Assembly (NCBI GenBank): GCA_011682355.1
Contig: JAACEU010000007.1
Location: 1-11,858 of the forward strand
Direction of reading: 5' to 3'
Length of the DNA: 11,858 nt
Source of the DNA: Nitrospirota bacterium
Lineage (GTDB): Bacteria > Patescibacteriota > Gracilibacteria > UBA1369 > LOWO2-01-FULL-3
Below the pieces are notes generated by a model. The model saw only the letters and a list, made by a program, of their open reading frames with translations. It ran no database searches and was not told the origin of the DNA. This document shows, piece after piece, positions 5,253 through 11,858 of the stretch. Numbering within the stretch: the stretch's first letter is position 1; each line of letters begins with the position of its first letter. The position numbers and the translations under genes were made by a program.

Positions 5253-6422
5253 TCATTCCCGCCGATAAACCTGCACGAATTCGTGTTGAGCGTGGGCTAG
5301 TTTGTGGTGGTTTTCGCAGAGGTATTCAAGCCCTTCGGGTGAATGCGATTTGGTAAGAGCGTAGCCGTTTATGTGGTGTAGGTCGGATGGTGGATGGGTG
5401 CAGTCGGCGCGAGCGCATTGATTGTTTTGGCGTGCGAGCACCAGGCGTTTTACCACTATTGGAACTGTTCTTGATTTTGATTCTTTTGCTTCTCGGGCTT
5501 TTTTCTCTGCGCAATCAGGGCAGACTTTTATTGTTACTTGTTTTTCCGTCTGCGCTCTCTGAGCCGATACTACCACCACTTCAGCCTGCTCAGGTTGTGA
5601 CGTTGGTGGTGCCACCGACGCTTCCGCTTCTTCCGCTTGCGCCACTGTTTTCGCTTTTTCTATCATTTTTATCAACTCTCCCAGAACTTCACCGTGACTC
5701 ATTGTTTCGCCTGATTGTTTTTCTAGTTTTTGCTTGAGTGCGCGAAATTTTCGCTCGACTTTCGGGTCAACATGAAAATTTAGATTGCCCCACGCCGGTT
5801 CCAAAATCCCCCCTTCATCTCTCGCCGGAATCGAAGCTTCCGCCACCTCATCTCCCAACATAATCTCCACCGTATTTCCCGCCGGAAGTTCCACCTGGCG
5901 GCCCCGTCTAAAGCCGGACTCCACGGACAGGTCAGATTGAAAACTGTGTTTAAACACAGTTTTGTTTTTCTCTCTTTCTTTGCTAACTGAAAGGTTTAGG
6001 ACAAATTGCGATTCTGTCTGCACTTTTTCCGCCCAAAACCCATCTGTTTCCGGTTTTGCCACATAAGCCACTCTCACCACTTTACTATAACCAACTTCCC
6101 CACTCTCAAAAGCCTCCCGCAACTTTGGCTTGTCCTCCAGTTTCGCTGATAATTGCAAAATTTGATCAACTTTCGGATGGCTCATTCCCGCCAGTTTCGC
6201 CGCAAATTCATGAATTGAGGTGAAACCGCGATGACGGTGCAATCTTCGCCTGCAAACCTCCGGCAACAAACCTTCAAACTTTCGCATCCAAAGCCGTGCA
6301 TTCCCCCCGTATTCTTTACATTTTTGGTAAAGTTGGGAATCGCTGATAACTTGCAAATTTATTTCGGCGAAACCTCTCAGGTCCTCATTTTTTGAATTTT
6401 TGTTTCCCATGTTTTCAATCAT
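5253..6422 (-). CDS. HNH endonuclease-like protein of a multicopy-type family
   Basis: 389 residues, TGA stop. The C-terminal third is an HNH nuclease domain: CARADC (Cys336, Cys341), LHHING (349-350 HH), LCENHHKLAH (Cys369, His372, His373, His377), that is, a zinc-binding beta-beta-alpha metal fold that nicks DNA. A further CPDC pair is at 301-304. The N-terminal region (about 25-250) is helical and resembles the long N-terminal domains of DUF222/13E12-type HNH proteins. A Glu/Ala/Val-rich linker (255-295) joins the two. The start is the ATG at 6422; Met5 is an alternative, and neither has a Shine-Dalgarno site. Residues 154-161 (KTVFKHSF) are encoded by a perfect 24-bp palindrome. The gene is alone on its strand, converging on nadC. 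The target DNA and biological role are unknown; the family is often repeated within genomes, which suggests mobility or domestication. Confidence 0.88.
   Translation of the reverse strand: MIENMGNKNSKNEDLRGFAEINLQVISDSQLYQKCKEYGGNARLWMRKFEGLLPEVCRRRLHRHRGFTSIHEFAAKLAGMSHPKVDQILQLSAKLEDKPKLREAFESGEVGYSKVVRVAYVAKPETDGFWAEKVQTESQFVLNLSVSKEREKNKTVFKHSFQSDLSVESGFRRGRQVELPAGNTVEIMLGDEVAEASIPARDEGGILEPAWGNLNFHVDPKVERKFRALKQKLEKQSGETMSHGEVLGELIKMIEKAKTVAQAEEAEASVAPPTSQPEQAEVVVVSAQRAQTEKQVTIKVCPDCAEKKAREAKESKSRTVPIVVKRLVLARQNNQCARADCTHPPSDLHHINGYALTKSHSPEGLEYLCENHHKLAHAQHEFVQVYRRE
5940..5963. repeat. 24-bp perfect palindrome, copy 1, inside the HNH gene
   Basis: The half-site AAAACTGTGTTT is followed immediately by its exact reverse complement. 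It fills codons 154-161 of the HNH gene exactly in phase. A second copy at 6620-6643 differs at positions 11 and 14, which pair with each other, so both copies stay perfectly symmetric. Both are preceded by TTGA on the plus strand. It could be a protein-binding site, an RNA hairpin, or an inserted palindromic element. Confidence 0.85.
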
Positions 6423-6619
6423 TATTAATTAGTCAATCGCCGGTCAAATAGTGAGAGTACGCACACCTTGCGTGTATCCTCACCATACGCCTCGTTACTC
6501 CCTTGCGCAAGACCAAAATCGCAACTCTGACTTGCACGAAGTACGAAAAATCAATATAACCGCCTCAGGCTCGAACTTGAACTCGGACTCGAGGTTTTTC
6601 GCTCAATTGATGCGAGTTG

Positions 6620-6643
6620 AAAACTGTGTGTACACACAGTTTT
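6620..6643. repeat. 24-bp perfect palindrome, copy 2, intergenic
   Basis: The half-site AAAACTGTGTGT is followed by its exact reverse complement. It differs from the copy in the HNH gene by one compensating pair (T/A to G/C at positions 11 and 14). On the plus strand it is followed by a TT that extends the T-run, so it could act as a weak AT-rich terminator, but the stem is not GC-rich. It lies about 200 bases upstream of the HNH start. Confidence 0.85.
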
Positions 6644-6787
6644 TGTGCTTAATTTTCGACTTAAACCGAAAAGTTAGGGTACAGAGTGAAGTCTGAAAAA
6701 CTATTGGGAATAACCTCAGAAAACGAAGTTTTTTTTGTTCAAATAAAAGAAAACAAACGGAATGGGCAAAAATATTTAATATCTGTA

Positions 6788-6801
6788 TTTCCGTACGGAA
6801 A
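6788..6801. repeat. 14-bp perfect palindrome TTTCCGTACGGAAA
   Basis: Fully symmetric around CGTACG, just beyond the A-run on the left flank of the hairpin at 6816-6854. It could be an operator half or a small stem. No second copy was seen in the window. Confidence 0.5.
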
Positions 6802-7061: not shown

Positions 7062-10000
7062 ATGTTCAAGGCCCTAGAAAAATACTTTGTTTCATTCTTA
7101 CTTATTATTGCTTTGTTGACCGTCAGCCTTACCGCTTCGACTACCCACGCGGCTGTTCCGCATTATTTGGGTTACGAAGGGTACCTGACAGACACAAGCG
7201 ACAATGCTATTACGAGCACTTACAACATGACCTTTCGGATTTATGACGCGTTGTCCGGCGGTAATTTATTATGGACCGAAACACACCCGTCCATTACTGT
7301 TACAAACGGTTATTTTTCGGTTCAGTTAGGAAGTGTTACGGCATTGAGCTTGAATTTCGACATTCCATATTGGATTTCTTTTGAAATAGTTGGAGACACC
7401 GAAATGACTCCCCGCCAACCTATAAATTCGGTTGGTTATTCATATTTTTCGGATAATACTTACGCTTTGACCGACGCGAATTTGGATACTACCATAGACG
7501 CCAACACCGATGATCAGATAGACATAGCAATTGCCGGAGCAGACGATTTTCAGTTTGTAGCGAATATTTTGAAACTTCTTGCCGGAAGTTCCATGGAGAC
7601 AGATACTATTAATGAAACGACCGGGGCGGCCGGTGTTACTATTGACGGAATCAAGTTAAAGGATGGTGGAGCGACTGTTTTTACCGGAGGAACGAATACT
7701 TTTAATATTACGAACGGCACGTCTTCTATGGATGTAGCGGCCGGTTCGGCTTTGAACGTTGATGCGAATTTGACTGTTGAATCCGCTTCGTTTGTGAATC
7801 AGGATCTTACGACTGATGCGAGCGTGGCGTTTACGGGTTTGAGTAATACTGACGCAAATATTACCAATGTTGGGGATATTGCTTTGGATAGTATCTCGAG
7901 CGATGGTTCCAATATTTCGATTGGAGCGACAAACGGTACAGACATCTTGCAGATAGGCGACGGAACGTATACCTGGGGACATGCCCCAATGGTAGGAATA
8001 GAAGGGATTTTGGAGGTGGATGGTGCTTCTTATTTTGATGGAGGATTTAGTACGGGTGGTAATTTGGATATGGCAGGGAATGATATTTTGAATGTAGACC
8101 AGATCACAGGAAATTCAACATATATTACAGTGGGTGATGTCGGCGCGGCTAGCACTAACTCTTTAGTAGCAAACGATGATTTGCTTGTGGGTGGGAAGCT
8201 TGAGGTGGATGGAGCAACGTATCTCGATAGTACGACAACTTTTGTTGATGATCTTACTCTTGGCTCAAGCGCGAAGGTTATTGCTGAATCCTACACGGAT
8301 ACTACCGGCAATATTTGGTCTGTTAAGGCTACGCCCGGAAGTGCAAGTACGGCGGTAGTGATGACGTTGGAGGCAGATGGGAGTAATTGGGCATCAGGGG
8401 CACATGTCCTAGAGCTCATAACCGATGACAATGATGCAATTCCATTTGTGATAAATAATGGGTCAGGTGATGTGTTCACGTTTAATCGTGCTGGATCGCT
8501 TACTATGGCAGGCAATCTGATTTTTACAGGTGGAGGACAGGTGAATACTTCCGCTAATGGTGATTTAACATTACTCCCAAACGGCACCGGAATCACAATA
8601 GTCGGTGACGCGGGCGCAACTTCGCACGCTTTGAACGCTAATGACGACTTGTTTGTGAATGGGCAACTAGAGGTGGATGGGAATGTGTGGGCTGATGGAA
8701 CAGTGTATACAAATTCTATCTTTATGACAACCACCGCTGGTGGGACAACCGATGCTATGAGAATTAAATATTATGCCGATGACGGACAAAGATTCCATCT
8801 AAATAGTACAGACAATGCAGGCAACAACAATTTAATTATATCTAATTTTGCAAATAGGGACAAAGACCATGATCACGATACGCTAAGTGCTAGTCCAACT
8901 TTGTTTATTCATTCAGATACCGATGTCGATACCGACAACGCGGAATATCTTGGTTTGACCTATACGGGCCTTTCCGGTGGTACGATGGAGACGGATCGGG
9001 CGACATTTGATATGACATTGCAGACGGTAGCGCCATTTGCTACCGCTACGGGTACGAATAGGGATGGTGCTGATATTATTCTGCAAACTTCATCTCCGAC
9101 GAATTCAGGTACGGTTTATGGGGTGACGTCTATTGGGGCGAATACGAATAGTCACACTATTGGTGATACTGCCGATAGTTTGTTTGTGGATGGAAAACTG
9201 GAGGTGGATGGTGCGACGTATTTTGATGGAGGATTTAGTGCGGGTGGTAATTTGGATATGGCAGGGAATGATATTTTGAATGTAGACCAGATCACAGGAA
9301 ATTCAACATATATAACAATTGGTGATGTCGGCGCGGCTGCCGGACATGCTTCCGCAAACGACGACTTACTTGTAGGCGGGATTTTAGAGGTGGATGGGTC
9401 GAGTTATTTTGGTAGTACTGTAAGTTTAGGGCTTGGTGTGACATTACTGGCGAGTGCTGACAGGGGTGGAATCCTATTGTCTAACTCGTGGCAAACGCCA
9501 GACACTTTTACAATGCATACGGGAACTTTGGCTAATTCTATTTTAATTTCCGAATATAACGATAGATCTTACGACTTCGCCCACGCTCTCCAAACTAATC
9601 CAACTTTGTATATTCAATCAGCAAATCAATCGGCGGACGAATGGATTTCCCTTACACACGACCAAACCGATGGTGTGATTGATGTAGGAACGGGGACTAT
9701 AAAGATGAATGATAATGTAGGGATGGTTGGGAATGATATTTTGAATGTAGACCAGATCACGGGGAATTCAACATATATTACAGTGGGTGATGTCGGCGCG
9801 GCTACAGGACATGGTTTGGCGGCAAACGATGATTTGCTTGTGGGCGGGAAATTGGAGGTGGATGGTCAAACCTATATAGATCAGTCAATCTTTTTAAGTG
9901 GAACTCTGCAAATGAGTAGTGGCGGAAGTATTACAACTACTTCTGCGGGAGATTTGACTTTCCTTCCCGACACCACAGGAATTACAATAGTAGGTGACGC

Positions 10001-11858
10001 TGGGTCGACTTCGCACACACTTGCGGCAAACGACGATTTATTCGTAAGCGGAAAGTTGGAGGCGGATGGGGACGTGTATGCAGATGGACTATTTTATGCC
10101 GCTACTGGAATTAGAGGTATAGGTGATCAATATGGTGTTGTATTTGGAGCGGGTAGCGACGCTAAACTTGGTTATTATAACAATCAGACTCCAGACGCGC
10201 TTATTTTAAGTGTGGGTGCTGATAGTAATGGGTTTATAATCGCAGAAAATGCGGATACGGGTACCGATTTCGGCCATACCCTCCAAACCAACCCAACAGT
10301 ATTCATCCACTCTGCAGACGCTACAGACACGACTCAATGGCTCTCCTTCGCGCACGATCAGACAGACGGTCGAATCCAAACAGGAGCGGGGAACATAAGC
10401 ATAGGTTCCGGCAGTGATTCACATTCACTTACAACACCGAACGATTTATTTGTGAGTGGGAAGATGGAGGTGGATGGGGTGACTTATTTTGATGGGGCAG
10501 TTCAGTTTTACGCGCAACCAACAATCAATGATGACCTTCCTCTTAATTTTGGTACATCTTCGGATGCTAAACTGTATTGGAATACAGCACAAACACCAGA
10601 TGCCTTATCTTTATCGTTAGGGACAGACAGTAGGAGTCTCCTTATAGTTGAAACCGGAGATCATGCGGTCGACATGGGACACGCACAACAAACCAACCCA
10701 ACAATATTCATCCACTCTGCGGACGCGACGGACACGACTCAATGGCTCTCCTTCGCGCACGATCAGACAAACGCAGTTATCGAATCCGGTGCGGGAAACA
10801 TTCATTTTAATTCTTCGATCGAGACGGGGGCTTATGAGTTTTCCGAGGACGCGGGGTTTGTGTCGGCGATGGATATGAGTGTGTCGGCGACGCCGGCGGT
10901 GGGGACTCAGGAATCTTATACTTTTAAAATCGATGGCGAATCGTTCCTAAAGATGTACGCTGAGGCGGATAGTTCGGGTGGAATTCAGAACGAGGAACTC
11001 AGATTTTACAAGCCTATAGCGGGGGAATGGTTCACGGATGAAACTTCGACTCTGGTGAGTGTGAAGCAGAGTCCTACGACCGCGACAACGAATACAATGG
11101 TGACTTTGGAGGCGGATGGTACGAATTGGTCAGGAGGGTATGTTTTGCAACTTATTACAGATGATGCTCAAGCAGTTCCTTTCGATATTACAGATGGATC
11201 AGGAAGTGTATTTCAGGTTAGTCGCGCAGGTTCGTTGAGTATGGATGGAAATTTATTTTTCGATGGTGCCGCTGGAATATATACTCTTTCAAATGGTAAT
11301 TTATCGTTAGTCCCAAACGGCACCGGAATCACAATAATCGGTGATGCGGGCACGCAGGATAAAATGGGAACGCCTCTCAATGATGATTTATTTGTGAGTG
11401 GAAGGCTGGAGGTGGATGGGTTGGCTTATTTTGACGCAGGTGCTATTTCTGCCGGCAATATGCAGATGGGGAATAATAATGCAGTTACATTCGGAAGCGG
11501 GCAGGTTTCTGCTATGCGTTATTCTACATACCAGGACCCTGACGCGTTGTATATTGGGGTAGCTACAGCGAGTAACAGCCTTATGATTGGGGAAATGGCT
11601 GATTATAGTGTAAACGTTGCCCATGCGCAACAGACAAACCCCACCATATTCATCCACTCTGCGGATGCTACAGACACGACTCAATGGCTCTCCCTCGCCC
11701 ACGACCAAACAAACGCAGTCATCGAATCCGGCGCGGGAAACATTCATTTCAATTCTTCAATAGAAACGGGGGCTTACGAATACACCGAAGACGGAGGATT
11801 CCTATCGGCGATGGATATGAGCGTATCGGCTACACCGGCGGCGGGAACACAGGAATCT
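7062..11858 (+). CDS. Giant secreted modular surface protein (adhesin or fibre-like), 3' end beyond the window
   Basis: The frame is open for 1599 codons to the window edge. Residues 1-30 are a Sec signal peptide (charged start MFKALEKY, hydrophobic core FLLIIALLTVSL, likely cleavage after THA). Residues 33-140 form a recognisable extracellular domain (YEGYLTD, FRIYDALSGG, LWTET, NGYFSVQLG, MTPRQPINSVGYSYFSD), comparable to the common 'YQGRLTDSSGNP...LYDA...SVPYA' domain at the start of many large secreted and phage-fibre-like proteins. The rest is a chain of Asp/Thr/Gly/Asn/Ala-rich modules of three repeating types, divided by nine copies of a V-x-G-K-LEVDG motif. My translation contains no cysteine and few basic residues, as usual for long extracellular beta-rich fibres. 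No anchor is visible; it should lie downstream. Attachment or host/cell contact is a reasonable guess. It has its own promoter and no partner gene in view. Confidence 0.93.
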   Translation, partial: MFKALEKYFVSFLLIIALLTVSLTASTTHAAVPHYLGYEGYLTDTSDNAITSTYNMTFRIYDALSGGNLLWTETHPSITVTNGYFSVQLGSVTALSLNFDIPYWISFEIVGDTEMTPRQPINSVGYSYFSDNTYALTDANLDTTIDANTDDQIDIAIAGADDFQFVANILKLLAGSSMETDTINETTGAAGVTIDGIKLKDGGATVFTGGTNTFNITNGTSSMDVAAGSALNVDANLTVESASFVNQDLTTDASVAFTGLSNTDANITNVGDIALDSISSDGSNISIGATNGTDILQIGDGTYTWGHAPMVGIEGILEVDGASYFDGGFSTGGNLDMAGNDILNVDQITGNSTYITVGDVGAASTNSLVANDDLLVGGKLEVDGATYLDSTTTFVDDLTLGSSAKVIAESYTDTTGNIWSVKATPGSASTAVVMTLEADGSNWASGAHVLELITDDNDAIPFVINNGSGDVFTFNRAGSLTMAGNLIFTGGGQVNTSANGDLTLLPNGTGITIVGDAGATSHALNANDDLFVNGQLEVDGNVWADGTVYTNSIFMTTTAGGTTDAMRIKYYADDGQRFHLNSTDNAGNNNLIISNFANRDKDHDHDTLSASPTLFIHSDTDVDTDNAEYLGLTYTGLSGGTMETDRATFDMTLQTVAPFATATGTNRDGADIILQTSSPTNSGTVYGVTSIGANTNSHTIGDTADSLFVDGKLEVDGATYFDGGFSAGGNLDMAGNDILNVDQITGNSTYITIGDVGAAAGHASANDDLLVGGILEVDGSSYFGSTVSLGLGVTLLASADRGGILLSNSWQTPDTFTMHTGTLANSILISEYNDRSYDFAHALQTNPTLYIQSANQSADEWISLTHDQTDGVIDVGTGTIKMNDNVGMVGNDILNVDQITGNSTYITVGDVGAATGHGLAANDDLLVGGKLEVDGQTYIDQSIFLSGTLQMSSGGSITTTSAGDLTFLPDTTGITIVGDAGSTSHTLAANDDLFVSGKLEADGDVYADGLFYAATGIRGIGDQYGVVFGAGSDAKLGYYNNQTPDALILSVGADSNGFIIAENADTGTDFGHTLQTNPTVFIHSADATDTTQWLSFAHDQTDGRIQTGAGNISIGSGSDSHSLTTPNDLFVSGKMEVDGVTYFDGAVQFYAQPTINDDLPLNFGTSSDAKLYWNTAQTPDALSLSLGTDSRSLLIVETGDHAVDMGHAQQTNPTIFIHSADATDTTQWLSFAHDQTNAVIESGAGNIHFNSSIETGAYEFSEDAGFVSAMDMSVSATPAVGTQESYTFKIDGESFLKMYAEADSSGGIQNEELRFYKPIAGEWFTDETSTLVSVKQSPTTATTNTMVTLEADGTNWSGGYVLQLITDDAQAVPFDITDGSGSVFQVSRAGSLSMDGNLFFDGAAGIYTLSNGNLSLVPNGTGITIIGDAGTQDKMGTPLNDDLFVSGRLEVDGLAYFDAGAISAGNMQMGNNNAVTFGSGQVSAMRYSTYQDPDALYIGVATASNSLMIGEMADYSVNVAHAQQTNPTIFIHSADATDTTQWLSLAHDQTNAVIESGAGNIHFNSSIETGAYEYTEDGGFLSAMDMSVSATPAAGTQES
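8031..8150 (+). repeat. Module I, copy A (120-bp near-identical repeat)
   Basis: Encodes YFDGGFS, GGNLDMAGNDILNVDQITG, NSTYI and the GDVGAA end. It matches copy B (9219-9338) at 116 of 120 bases by eye, and its last 75 bases match copy C (9729-9803) at 73 of 75. Confidence 0.9.
8319..8681 (+). repeat. Module III, copy 1
   Basis: Encodes SVKATPG, TLEADGSNW, LELITDDNDAIPF, GSGDVF, RAGSL, LLPNGTGITIVGDAG and an LEVDG end. The full copy 2 at 11058-11420 has the same length (121 codons), and a shortened copy lies at 9915-10070. Confidence 0.85.
8736..8996 (+). repeat. Module II, diverged copy a
   Basis: Recognised by NNLIISNFANRDKDHDHD, then SPTLFIHSDTDVDTDNAEYL, which parallels QTNPTxFIHSADATDTTQWL in the later copies. 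This copy is clearly diverged and may be the ancestral type. Confidence 0.6.
9219..9338 (+). repeat. Module I, copy B (120-bp near-identical repeat)
   Basis: Same unit as 8031-8150 with four base differences: one near the start (acggg to gcggg) and three in the TYITV/TYITI segment. This high DNA identity contrasts with the other module types and suggests recent duplication or gene conversion. Confidence 0.9.
9438..9707 (+). repeat. Module II, diverged copy b
   Basis: Contains WQTPDTFTMHTG, SILISEYNDRSYDFAHALQTN, PTLYIQSANQSADEWISLTH and DQTDGVIDVGTGTIKM. It has the same order of elements as copies c-e with moderate protein similarity. Confidence 0.75.
9729..9803 (+). repeat. Module I, copy C (75-bp, shortened)
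   Basis: Begins at GNDILNVDQITG and lacks the YFDGGFS part. It differs from copy A at two bases. It is preceded by MNDNVGMV rather than LDMA, so the shortening happened at a module joint. Confidence 0.88.
9915..10070 (+). repeat. Module III, shortened copy
   Basis: Contains only the last part of the module: SAGDLTFLPDTTGITIVGDAG, then the ANDDLFVSGKLEADG junction. The TLEADG/LITDD part is absent. Confidence 0.75.
10137..10403 (+). repeat. Module II, copy c
   Basis: Contains FGAGSDAKLGYYN, QTPDALILSVGADS, HTLQTNPTVFIHSADATD, TTQWLSFAHDQTDGRI and GAGNISI. It lies between the seventh and eighth LEVDG junctions. Confidence 0.85.
10542..10916 (+). repeat. Module II, copy d with C-terminal extension
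   Basis: Contains FGTSSDAKLYWN, QTPDALSLSLGTDS, HAQQTNPTIFIHSADATD, TTQWLSFAHDQTNAVIES, GAGNIHF and the extension NSSIETGAYEFSEDAGF to GTQES. The last 80 codons (10677-10916) align without gaps to copy e. Confidence 0.88.
11058..11420 (+). repeat. Module III, copy 2
   Basis: Encodes SVKQSP, TLEADGTNW, LQLITDDAQAVPF, GSGSVF, RAGSL, LVPNGTGITIIGDAG and ends in GRLEVDG. It keeps the frame and overall length of copy 1, with one small deletion (after NW) and one small insertion (after GDAG) that cancel out. Confidence 0.85.
11484..11858 (+). repeat. Module II, copy e, running to the window edge
   Basis: Contains VTFGSGQVSAMRY, DPDALYIGVATASN, HAQQTNPTIFIHSADATD, TTQWLSLAHDQTNAVIES, GAGNIHF and the extension to GTQES. 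Its last 80 codons share 73 residues with copy d but carry many silent changes. The window ends at the same module position as the end of copy d. Confidence 0.88.

Follow-up and report, generated by a model that had tools for sequence, protein, structure and literature searches.

Rickettsia palindromic elements (RPEs), reportedly described by Ogata et al. in 2000, are short hairpin-forming mobile repeats that lie between genes and in frame inside the genes of conserved proteins. The RAYT (TnpAREP) enzymes that belong with REP palindromes are tyrosine enzymes with Y1 chemistry. RPEs measure 105–150 bp, and the passages on them that we draw on name no enzyme (PMC10969869; PMC2229807). Most REPs carry a GTAG or CGTC tag at one end, according to PMC3733652. 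Among proteins that read palindromic DNA, the site of ParB is parS (core CACGTG) and that of Noc is NBS (core CCCGGG); the base pair by which the two cores differ is read in Noc by a single arginine (PMC7383237). Here we analyze a stretch of 11,858 nucleotides (the window; GenBank contig JAACEU010000007.1, assembly GCA_011682355.1; contig C48 of the source genome G000, which has 782 kb in 153 contigs) from a member of the Patescibacteriota, in which a gene for an HNH nuclease with a predicted ParB/Noc-like DNA-binding domain holds a perfect 24-bp palindrome within its reading frame. The window palindromes belong to a family of the Peregrinibacteria/Gracilibacteria (Patescibacteria), and the full form of the palindrome is the second hairpin of a double-hairpin element of ~57–65 bp. 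Our best explanation as a whole, to which we give a probability of about 0.72, is that these palindromes serve as recognition sites for the HNH proteins, a family whose own gene contains one of them.

By its features this element can be likened to the RPEs, since it too occupies both intergenic positions and in-frame positions within genes of conserved proteins; it differs in being smaller, in having two hairpins, in belonging to a phylum unrelated to Rickettsia and in being borne by the gene of a nuclease that may be its cognate enzyme. Like the REP/RAYT systems, it would tie palindromic repeats to a dedicated DNA-cutting enzyme, but that candidate enzyme is an HNH nuclease with a ParB/Noc-like domain rather than a tyrosine enzyme, the site lies within coding sequence, and the element consensus (AAAATGGCTT...ACTTTT) lacks the GTAG/CGTC end tag. 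The double-hairpin and repetitive hairpin elements of mitochondrial DNA (PMC2800124) also have two hairpins, a mobile look and an occasional presence in genes; the elements described here are bacterial, nearly fixed in spacing, conserved in sequence and linked to a nuclease family. Homing endonuclease genes disrupt their site by their own insertion, whereas here, if the palindrome is the recognition site, it stands intact within the gene. A role as DNA uptake sequence was rejected: the half-sites AAGTCTGC and AAGTGTGC have 0–3 copies, near expectation, in 16–100 kb samples of six genomes and show none of the genome-wide excess of such sequences.

A palindrome conserved as a palindrome

The features of the window discussed below are:

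5253–6422, minus strand: HNH nuclease gene, 389 aa (ORF and homologue comparison)
5949–6365, minus strand: N-terminal ParB/Noc-like DNA-binding domain predicted by the structure model, residues ~20–158, in which residues 139–140 are Gln-Phe
5259–5519, minus strand: HNH nuclease domain, residues ~302–388 (alignment and model)
5940–5963, no strand: perfect 24-bp palindrome (TTTAAA core) where the N-terminal domain ends; of the element, only hairpin 2 is matched
6620–6643, no strand: the other perfect 24-bp palindrome (TGTACA core), lying 197 bp ahead of where the HNH gene starts; an identical 22-bp palindrome with a 20-nt flank lies upstream of the orthologue in G001
6619–6676, minus strand: weak, degenerate hit of model R2 (the double-hairpin element) over its full length (20.8 bits, E 6e-4, window searched alone with filters off)

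An earlier note, made from the window alone, had pointed out the two palindromes, and a check of the coordinates finds each to be exactly 24 bp long and fully self-complementary. As the note had also said, the copies differ by one compensated pair (positions 11 and 14, each other's pairing partners), and the first fills eight codons of the HNH open reading frame (ORF) in phase 0, i.e., codons 154–161 (KTVFKHSF). Its estimate that such palindromes are rare by chance agrees with 100 first-order Markov simulations of the window, in which the longest palindrome was at most 18 bp.

The HNH proteins have an HNH-type catalytic domain, with His349, His350, Cys369, His372 and His377 invariant across 37 aligned sequences. 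By the structure model the N-terminal domain is a ParB/Noc-type DNA-binding fold, with a helical domain that starts near residue 20–28; no ParB family appears among the Pfam matches at E≤0.01 in 37 members, and no CTPase domain was found ahead of the DNA-binding domain. The linker that follows is variable in the alignment, and its residues 159–208 are modelled at low confidence. The family is strongly multi-copy, with 52 matched stretches in G035 and 25 in G013, and several of its genes sit at contig ends in G035 and other relatives. In the window, a 33-nt stretch of the HNH gene (5678–5710/5158–5190) is repeated, 91% identical, just past the end of the gene, as if the gene were partly duplicated.

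The orthologous HNH gene of G001, a genome of the same genus, carries a different perfect palindrome (AAAGTGTGTGTACACACACTTT) at the same place, and its half-site departs from that of the window by two changed, compensated pairs and the loss of the outermost pair. Among HNH genes gathered by protein similarity alone from 30 genomes (including G000), with further loci added, 85 ORFs contain 21 perfect palindromes with arms of at least 8 (25.0 per 100 kb); in five relatives, 289 ORFs of other genes have a density of 2.8 per 100 kb. Fifteen of the 21 are in linkers, five are a single N-domain palindrome shared by the G039 paralogues and one is in the N-domain of L029. Scored over 160 codons at the end of the N-terminal domain, 37 of 83 HNH genes reach a palindrome score of at least 7; codon shuffling leaves 3.0, and windows taken from other ORFs give 3.1. 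A wider set, biased because it takes in genes found via the element, has a palindrome in 59 of 117 HNH N-domains, centered on a codon boundary in 57 of the 59. Here the commonest linker cores are CCCGGG (22) and CACGTG (9), together 31 of 59; they covary with the domain and are predicted sites. The palindrome of the HNH gene is hence conserved as a palindrome and not as a sequence: the peptides of homologues vary at this place and their DNA varies yet remains palindromic, the reverse of the conserved KTVFKHSF over non-palindromic DNA that the earlier note had named as evidence against itself.

Gene-borne and dispersed copies match within a genome. Both are of the AAASTGTG type in G000 and G001, and 10 of the 13 sites in the same-genus set are perfect palindromes. 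The linker palindrome of G002 (AAAGTGGTCATATGACCACTTT) has three more copies in G002, with 1, 1 and 3 mismatches, one of which (C78) bears an 11-nt HNH flank and may be a relic; at up to 3 mismatches AAAGTGGTCATATGACCACTTT has no match in G000, G001 or G005. Two different family palindromes stand 13 nt apart at L126:1534–1590 (G001:C14). Perfect palindromes of the sequence AAAACTGTGTGCGCACACAGTTTT or AAAACTGTGTACGTACACAGTTTT, some of them longer, also occur in six Bacteroidales/Saprospiraceae contigs (L013, L014, L015, L016, L018 and L021), perhaps as a separate family.

Covariation between the palindrome and the domain encoded beside it

Half-site position 2, the base pair that separates the CCCGGG and CACGTG cores, covaries with residue 139 of the domain encoded by the same gene. 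In the 54 of the 59 genes that remain after a 90% identity filter, position 2 is C with Lys or Arg139 in 29/29, G with Gln139 in 5/7 and T with Gln139 in 2/2; with A (15 genes), the residues include Ser (3), Cys (3), Asn (3), Val (2) and Lys (1). The coupling of residue 139 to position 2 has a z of 12.2 (next 11.7) and a z-APC of 11.2, first of 1053 pairs (next 5.9). Across the 31 genes with one of the two commonest cores, Arg140 goes with CACGTG in 9/9 and Lys or Arg139 with CCCGGG in 22/22, and the core label changes about four times on the tree, at least three of them on well-supported branches. Among gene pairs of 55–95% identity, those with different bases also differ at residue 139 in 84% of cases and those with the same base in 25%, the largest contrast of any column; at 65–95% identity this contrast is level with that of residue 119.

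The rule drawn from the 59 genes was then applied to further proteins. Three protein searches (at most 120 listed per search) gave 324 proteins, of which 309 lacked an exact training N-domain and 307 could be mapped; 121 had a PG, HV or RA core dipeptide, from which the core was inferred in the protein sequence, leaving 105 at the 90% filter, while the 186 mapped proteins in which a regular expression found no core dipeptide were set aside. Lys or Arg139 accompanies CCC|GGG (Pro-Gly) in 52/53, Gln139 accompanies CGC|GCG (Arg-Ala) in 21/21 and Arg140 accompanies CAC|GTG (His-Val) in 24/31. Overall, the rule was correct in 97 of 102 predictions on the 105 proteins, compared with an average of 40.0 and a maximum of 57 with shuffled labels. 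It was correct in 71/76, 31/34 and 6/6 of the proteins with less than 80%, 70% and 65% identity, respectively, to every training domain, in 48/52 when the new set was clustered at 70%, and in 5/5 in a smaller protein set.

That the site matches the DNA-binding domain is hence an observed pattern. Because the core follows residues 139–140 of the same gene, also in proteins that were not used to derive the rule, an HNH protein with such a palindrome very probably recognizes the palindrome of its own gene, binding here being deduced from covariation, and recognition by each such protein of its own palindrome is the simplest account. The earlier note had offered recognition by the HNH protein as a speculative option, which the ParB/Noc-like domain and the residue–base covariation, checked on the unused proteins, now support. 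ParB–parS and Noc–NBS (PMC7383237) invite comparison: the domain fold (by the model), the palindromic sites, here predicted, with a CACGTG or CCCGGG core and the base pair that separates two specificities are alike, whereas here an HNH nuclease is joined on, Pfam gives no ParB match and residue 139 lies well downstream of Noc Arg186 by estimated linear position.

Two observations weigh against the covariation. L308 (CGCGCG, removed by the filter) has kept the Lys found in L157 (CCCGGG), a relative with 94% identity, and L245 (GACGTC) has Lys139. Against the match of gene-borne with dispersed copies stands the shared linker palindrome of G013 (AACTCATCACCGGTGATGAGTT, up to 3 mismatches), which is present within G013 only in its two HNH paralogues, so that not every linker palindrome is dispersed.

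A double-hairpin element between genes and inside them

Copies of the palindrome do occur in related genomes, whose lack of them the earlier note had named as a possible refutation. With at most one mismatch, AAGTSTGCNNNNGCASACTT is found at 73 places in 24 of 99 relatives, compared with 1 of 99 for its reversed control, and the central tetramer is self-complementary in 55 of the 73 sites. Of the loci around 68 sites, 9 are in HNH ORFs, with the center on a codon boundary in 9/9, and 59 are elsewhere. Elsewhere in G000 there are two identical copies (C18:712–735 and C18:4055–4078) and one with 3 mismatches (C53:671–694), and the reversed control pattern has 0 matches. The copy at C18:4055 is best described from its flanks as an HNH relic or chimera and not a clean independent insertion, because its 3′ flank is HNH-like (32/33 identities with the sequence that follows the palindrome in the HNH gene, barring a 21-nt gap; score 46 versus a shuffle maximum of 23.5) and its left flank is like that of the dispersed copy C18:712 and unlike the HNH gene.

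The flanks of the palindrome contain a first hairpin at a nearly fixed distance. Of 70 copies, 38 have a recognizable hairpin 1 (41 by score, 3 dropped by eye) and give the consensus AAAATGGCTTnnTTnAGCCAnnAAATGAnCCnAAAAGTCTGCnCGnGCAGACTTTTn; the rest show only hairpin 2, which was the search query. Relative to the 57-nt model, the conserved stretch extends from about −10 to 55 (35 copies). Pair counts show 89.2% paired, versus 25.6–43.6% in slid versions; there are 47 doubly changed cells versus 15.0 in shuffles (none of 500 as high) and 7 doubly changed pairs versus 4.3 (9 of 500 as high). At E≤0.01, model R2 finds something in 57 of the 99 relatives, in many of them a lone weak hit at chance level. 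The genomes with many copies include G035 (48), G027 (20), G086 (18), G029 (17) and G048 (15), which are upper figures with some places counted on both strands. At E≤1e-4, 12 of 145 genomes of the class have a match, two of them outside the order. At E≤1e-3 the element is present in 9 of the 24 genomes with an HNH gene and in none of the 6 without, numbers too few to speak to dependence.

The element has spread between genes and in frame inside them, as the earlier note had envisaged in proposing an in-frame mobile palindromic element. A Pfam scan placed nine element-bearing ORFs in seven protein families: MutL, PP-loop (TilS-like), QueG, LipA, UppP (BacA), 6-phosphogluconolactonase-like (6PGL-like) and TsaD. 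Three of these ORFs are QueG, with the element at different places. In LipA, the element peptide (residues 257–285) has no counterpart in the best solved lipoyl synthase, in which the match breaks off after chain residue 270 and picks up again at 272; alignments at the element show gaps of 4 and 17 residues in TsaD and of 7, 2 and 1 residues in UppP, and that of the 6PGL-like protein to solved relatives has no clean gap. In a comparison that leaves out G034, the QueG insert of G027 is missing in G023 and G014 of the same genus, and the UppP insert is common to G035 and its congener G048 and missing in G030 and G033. The element peptide of the 6PGL-like protein is 74% identical over 23 residues to the HNH protein of G035:C3. 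Orientation, called only where hairpin 1 shows direction, is sense in UppP and the 6PGL-like gene and antisense in TilS and in the QueG genes of G027 and G029, the latter with half of hairpin 1.

The exact genus motif also occurs outside the group in 14 stretches of genome contigs from unrelated organisms, one apparently a G001 contig; we take these matches to be mostly chance, with a possible exception in the Bacteroidales/Saprospiraceae palindromes. A phage origin was rejected, since neither of two patterns has a match in viral contigs. Near the palindromes of the window, 6677–6793 (plus strand) is a remnant of a short-ORF family, in which 33 residues match the end of ORF L005:1473–1895 (minus strand) at 70% identity; a piece of the ORF start stands just before it and the middle is gone. 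A relative begins at L019:6869 (plus strand), and the family recurs close to palindrome copies. Further on, an open frame of 1599 codons (7062–11858, plus strand) runs past the end of the window, with a start like that of secreted proteins and near-repeats such as LEVDG and NPTIFIHSADATDTTQWLSFAHDQT.

Alternative explanations, proposed mechanism and significance

An unlikely alternative is that the element is a selfish, RPE-like double-hairpin repeat moved by an unknown enzyme, and that HNH linkers hold it by descent, as an old and tolerant insertion site. The copies inside LipA, TsaD, UppP, QueG, MutL and the 6PGL-like and TilS-like proteins would fit such a repeat, and the linker elements of HNH genes are always sense, as expected from one old insertion (13/13 linker matches at E<1e-4 in the HNH loci scanned; 16/16 linker copies among 41 further element contexts). 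What it leaves unexplained is that the core follows residues 139–140 in non-training proteins and that linker palindromes exist in genomes without an R2 match, such as G036, G038 and G018.

We consider it very improbable that the palindromes act as hairpins in the mRNA, whether to terminate transcription, to pause it or to affect message stability. HNH genes are enriched in inverted repeats with short spacers (0 and 2–6, arms of at least 8), and T runs follow some dispersed copies; however, intergenic inverted repeats of the sampled relatives peak at spacers of 5–11 against 0–6 in HNH genes, the symmetry usually reaches the very center, as the central tetramers show, and Rfam has no match, hence no known RNA family, at the 5 loci searched. 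A plain terminator is unlikely both from the spacers and from the copies in coding sequence, with which it is incompatible. Scarcely credible is the idea that template switching merely perfected chance quasi-palindromes in a fast, unconstrained linker: the variable, poorly modelled linkers would allow it, but the enrichment at the domain–linker junction, shared core letters, codon-boundary centers and coupling to the DNA-binding domain speak against it, and the residue–base covariation strongly so.

For recognition by the HNH family we propose the following mechanism. The ParB/Noc-like helix-turn-helix domain would bind a ~22-bp palindrome as a dimer, followed by a flexible linker and the HNH nuclease, with the cognate site written into the gene at or just past the end of the domain. 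Site and DNA-binding domain would be inherited and exchanged together, which may be why drifting specificity does not break their match. Accompanied by another small hairpin on its 5′ side, the site has in some genomes spread between genes and in frame inside them. Cuts or nicks by the HNH protein at the palindrome would drive spread, conversion and the perfect symmetry of the copies; cutting by the HNH nuclease is most likely the driver that mobilizes the dispersed copies, as far as can be deduced. Binding within its own gene would also let the HNH protein control itself. By analogy, the dispersed elements look like non-autonomous copies, as REP sequences are to RAYT. The full picture, to which we give somewhat less than even odds, is of a mobile system in which a ParB/Noc-steered HNH nuclease would read the palindrome of its own gene by a residue–base code, cut it and spread it as an element, reader and site forming one unit whose specificity can change without loss of the match.

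In the open-access literature that we searched, neither elements of this kind in these bacteria nor this HNH family are described. If the proposal is true, palindromic elements of coding genes would gain a candidate enzyme. Since one ORF encodes the ParB/Noc-like reader and contains its DNA site, nature would also have documented their joint evolution in a form that can be read gene by gene. It would likewise provide a specificity code ready for testing and in-frame mobile palindromes in another bacterial phylum, and it suggests a role for the large HNH family of the Patescibacteria, most members of which bear the name "hypothetical protein" or "HNH endonuclease".
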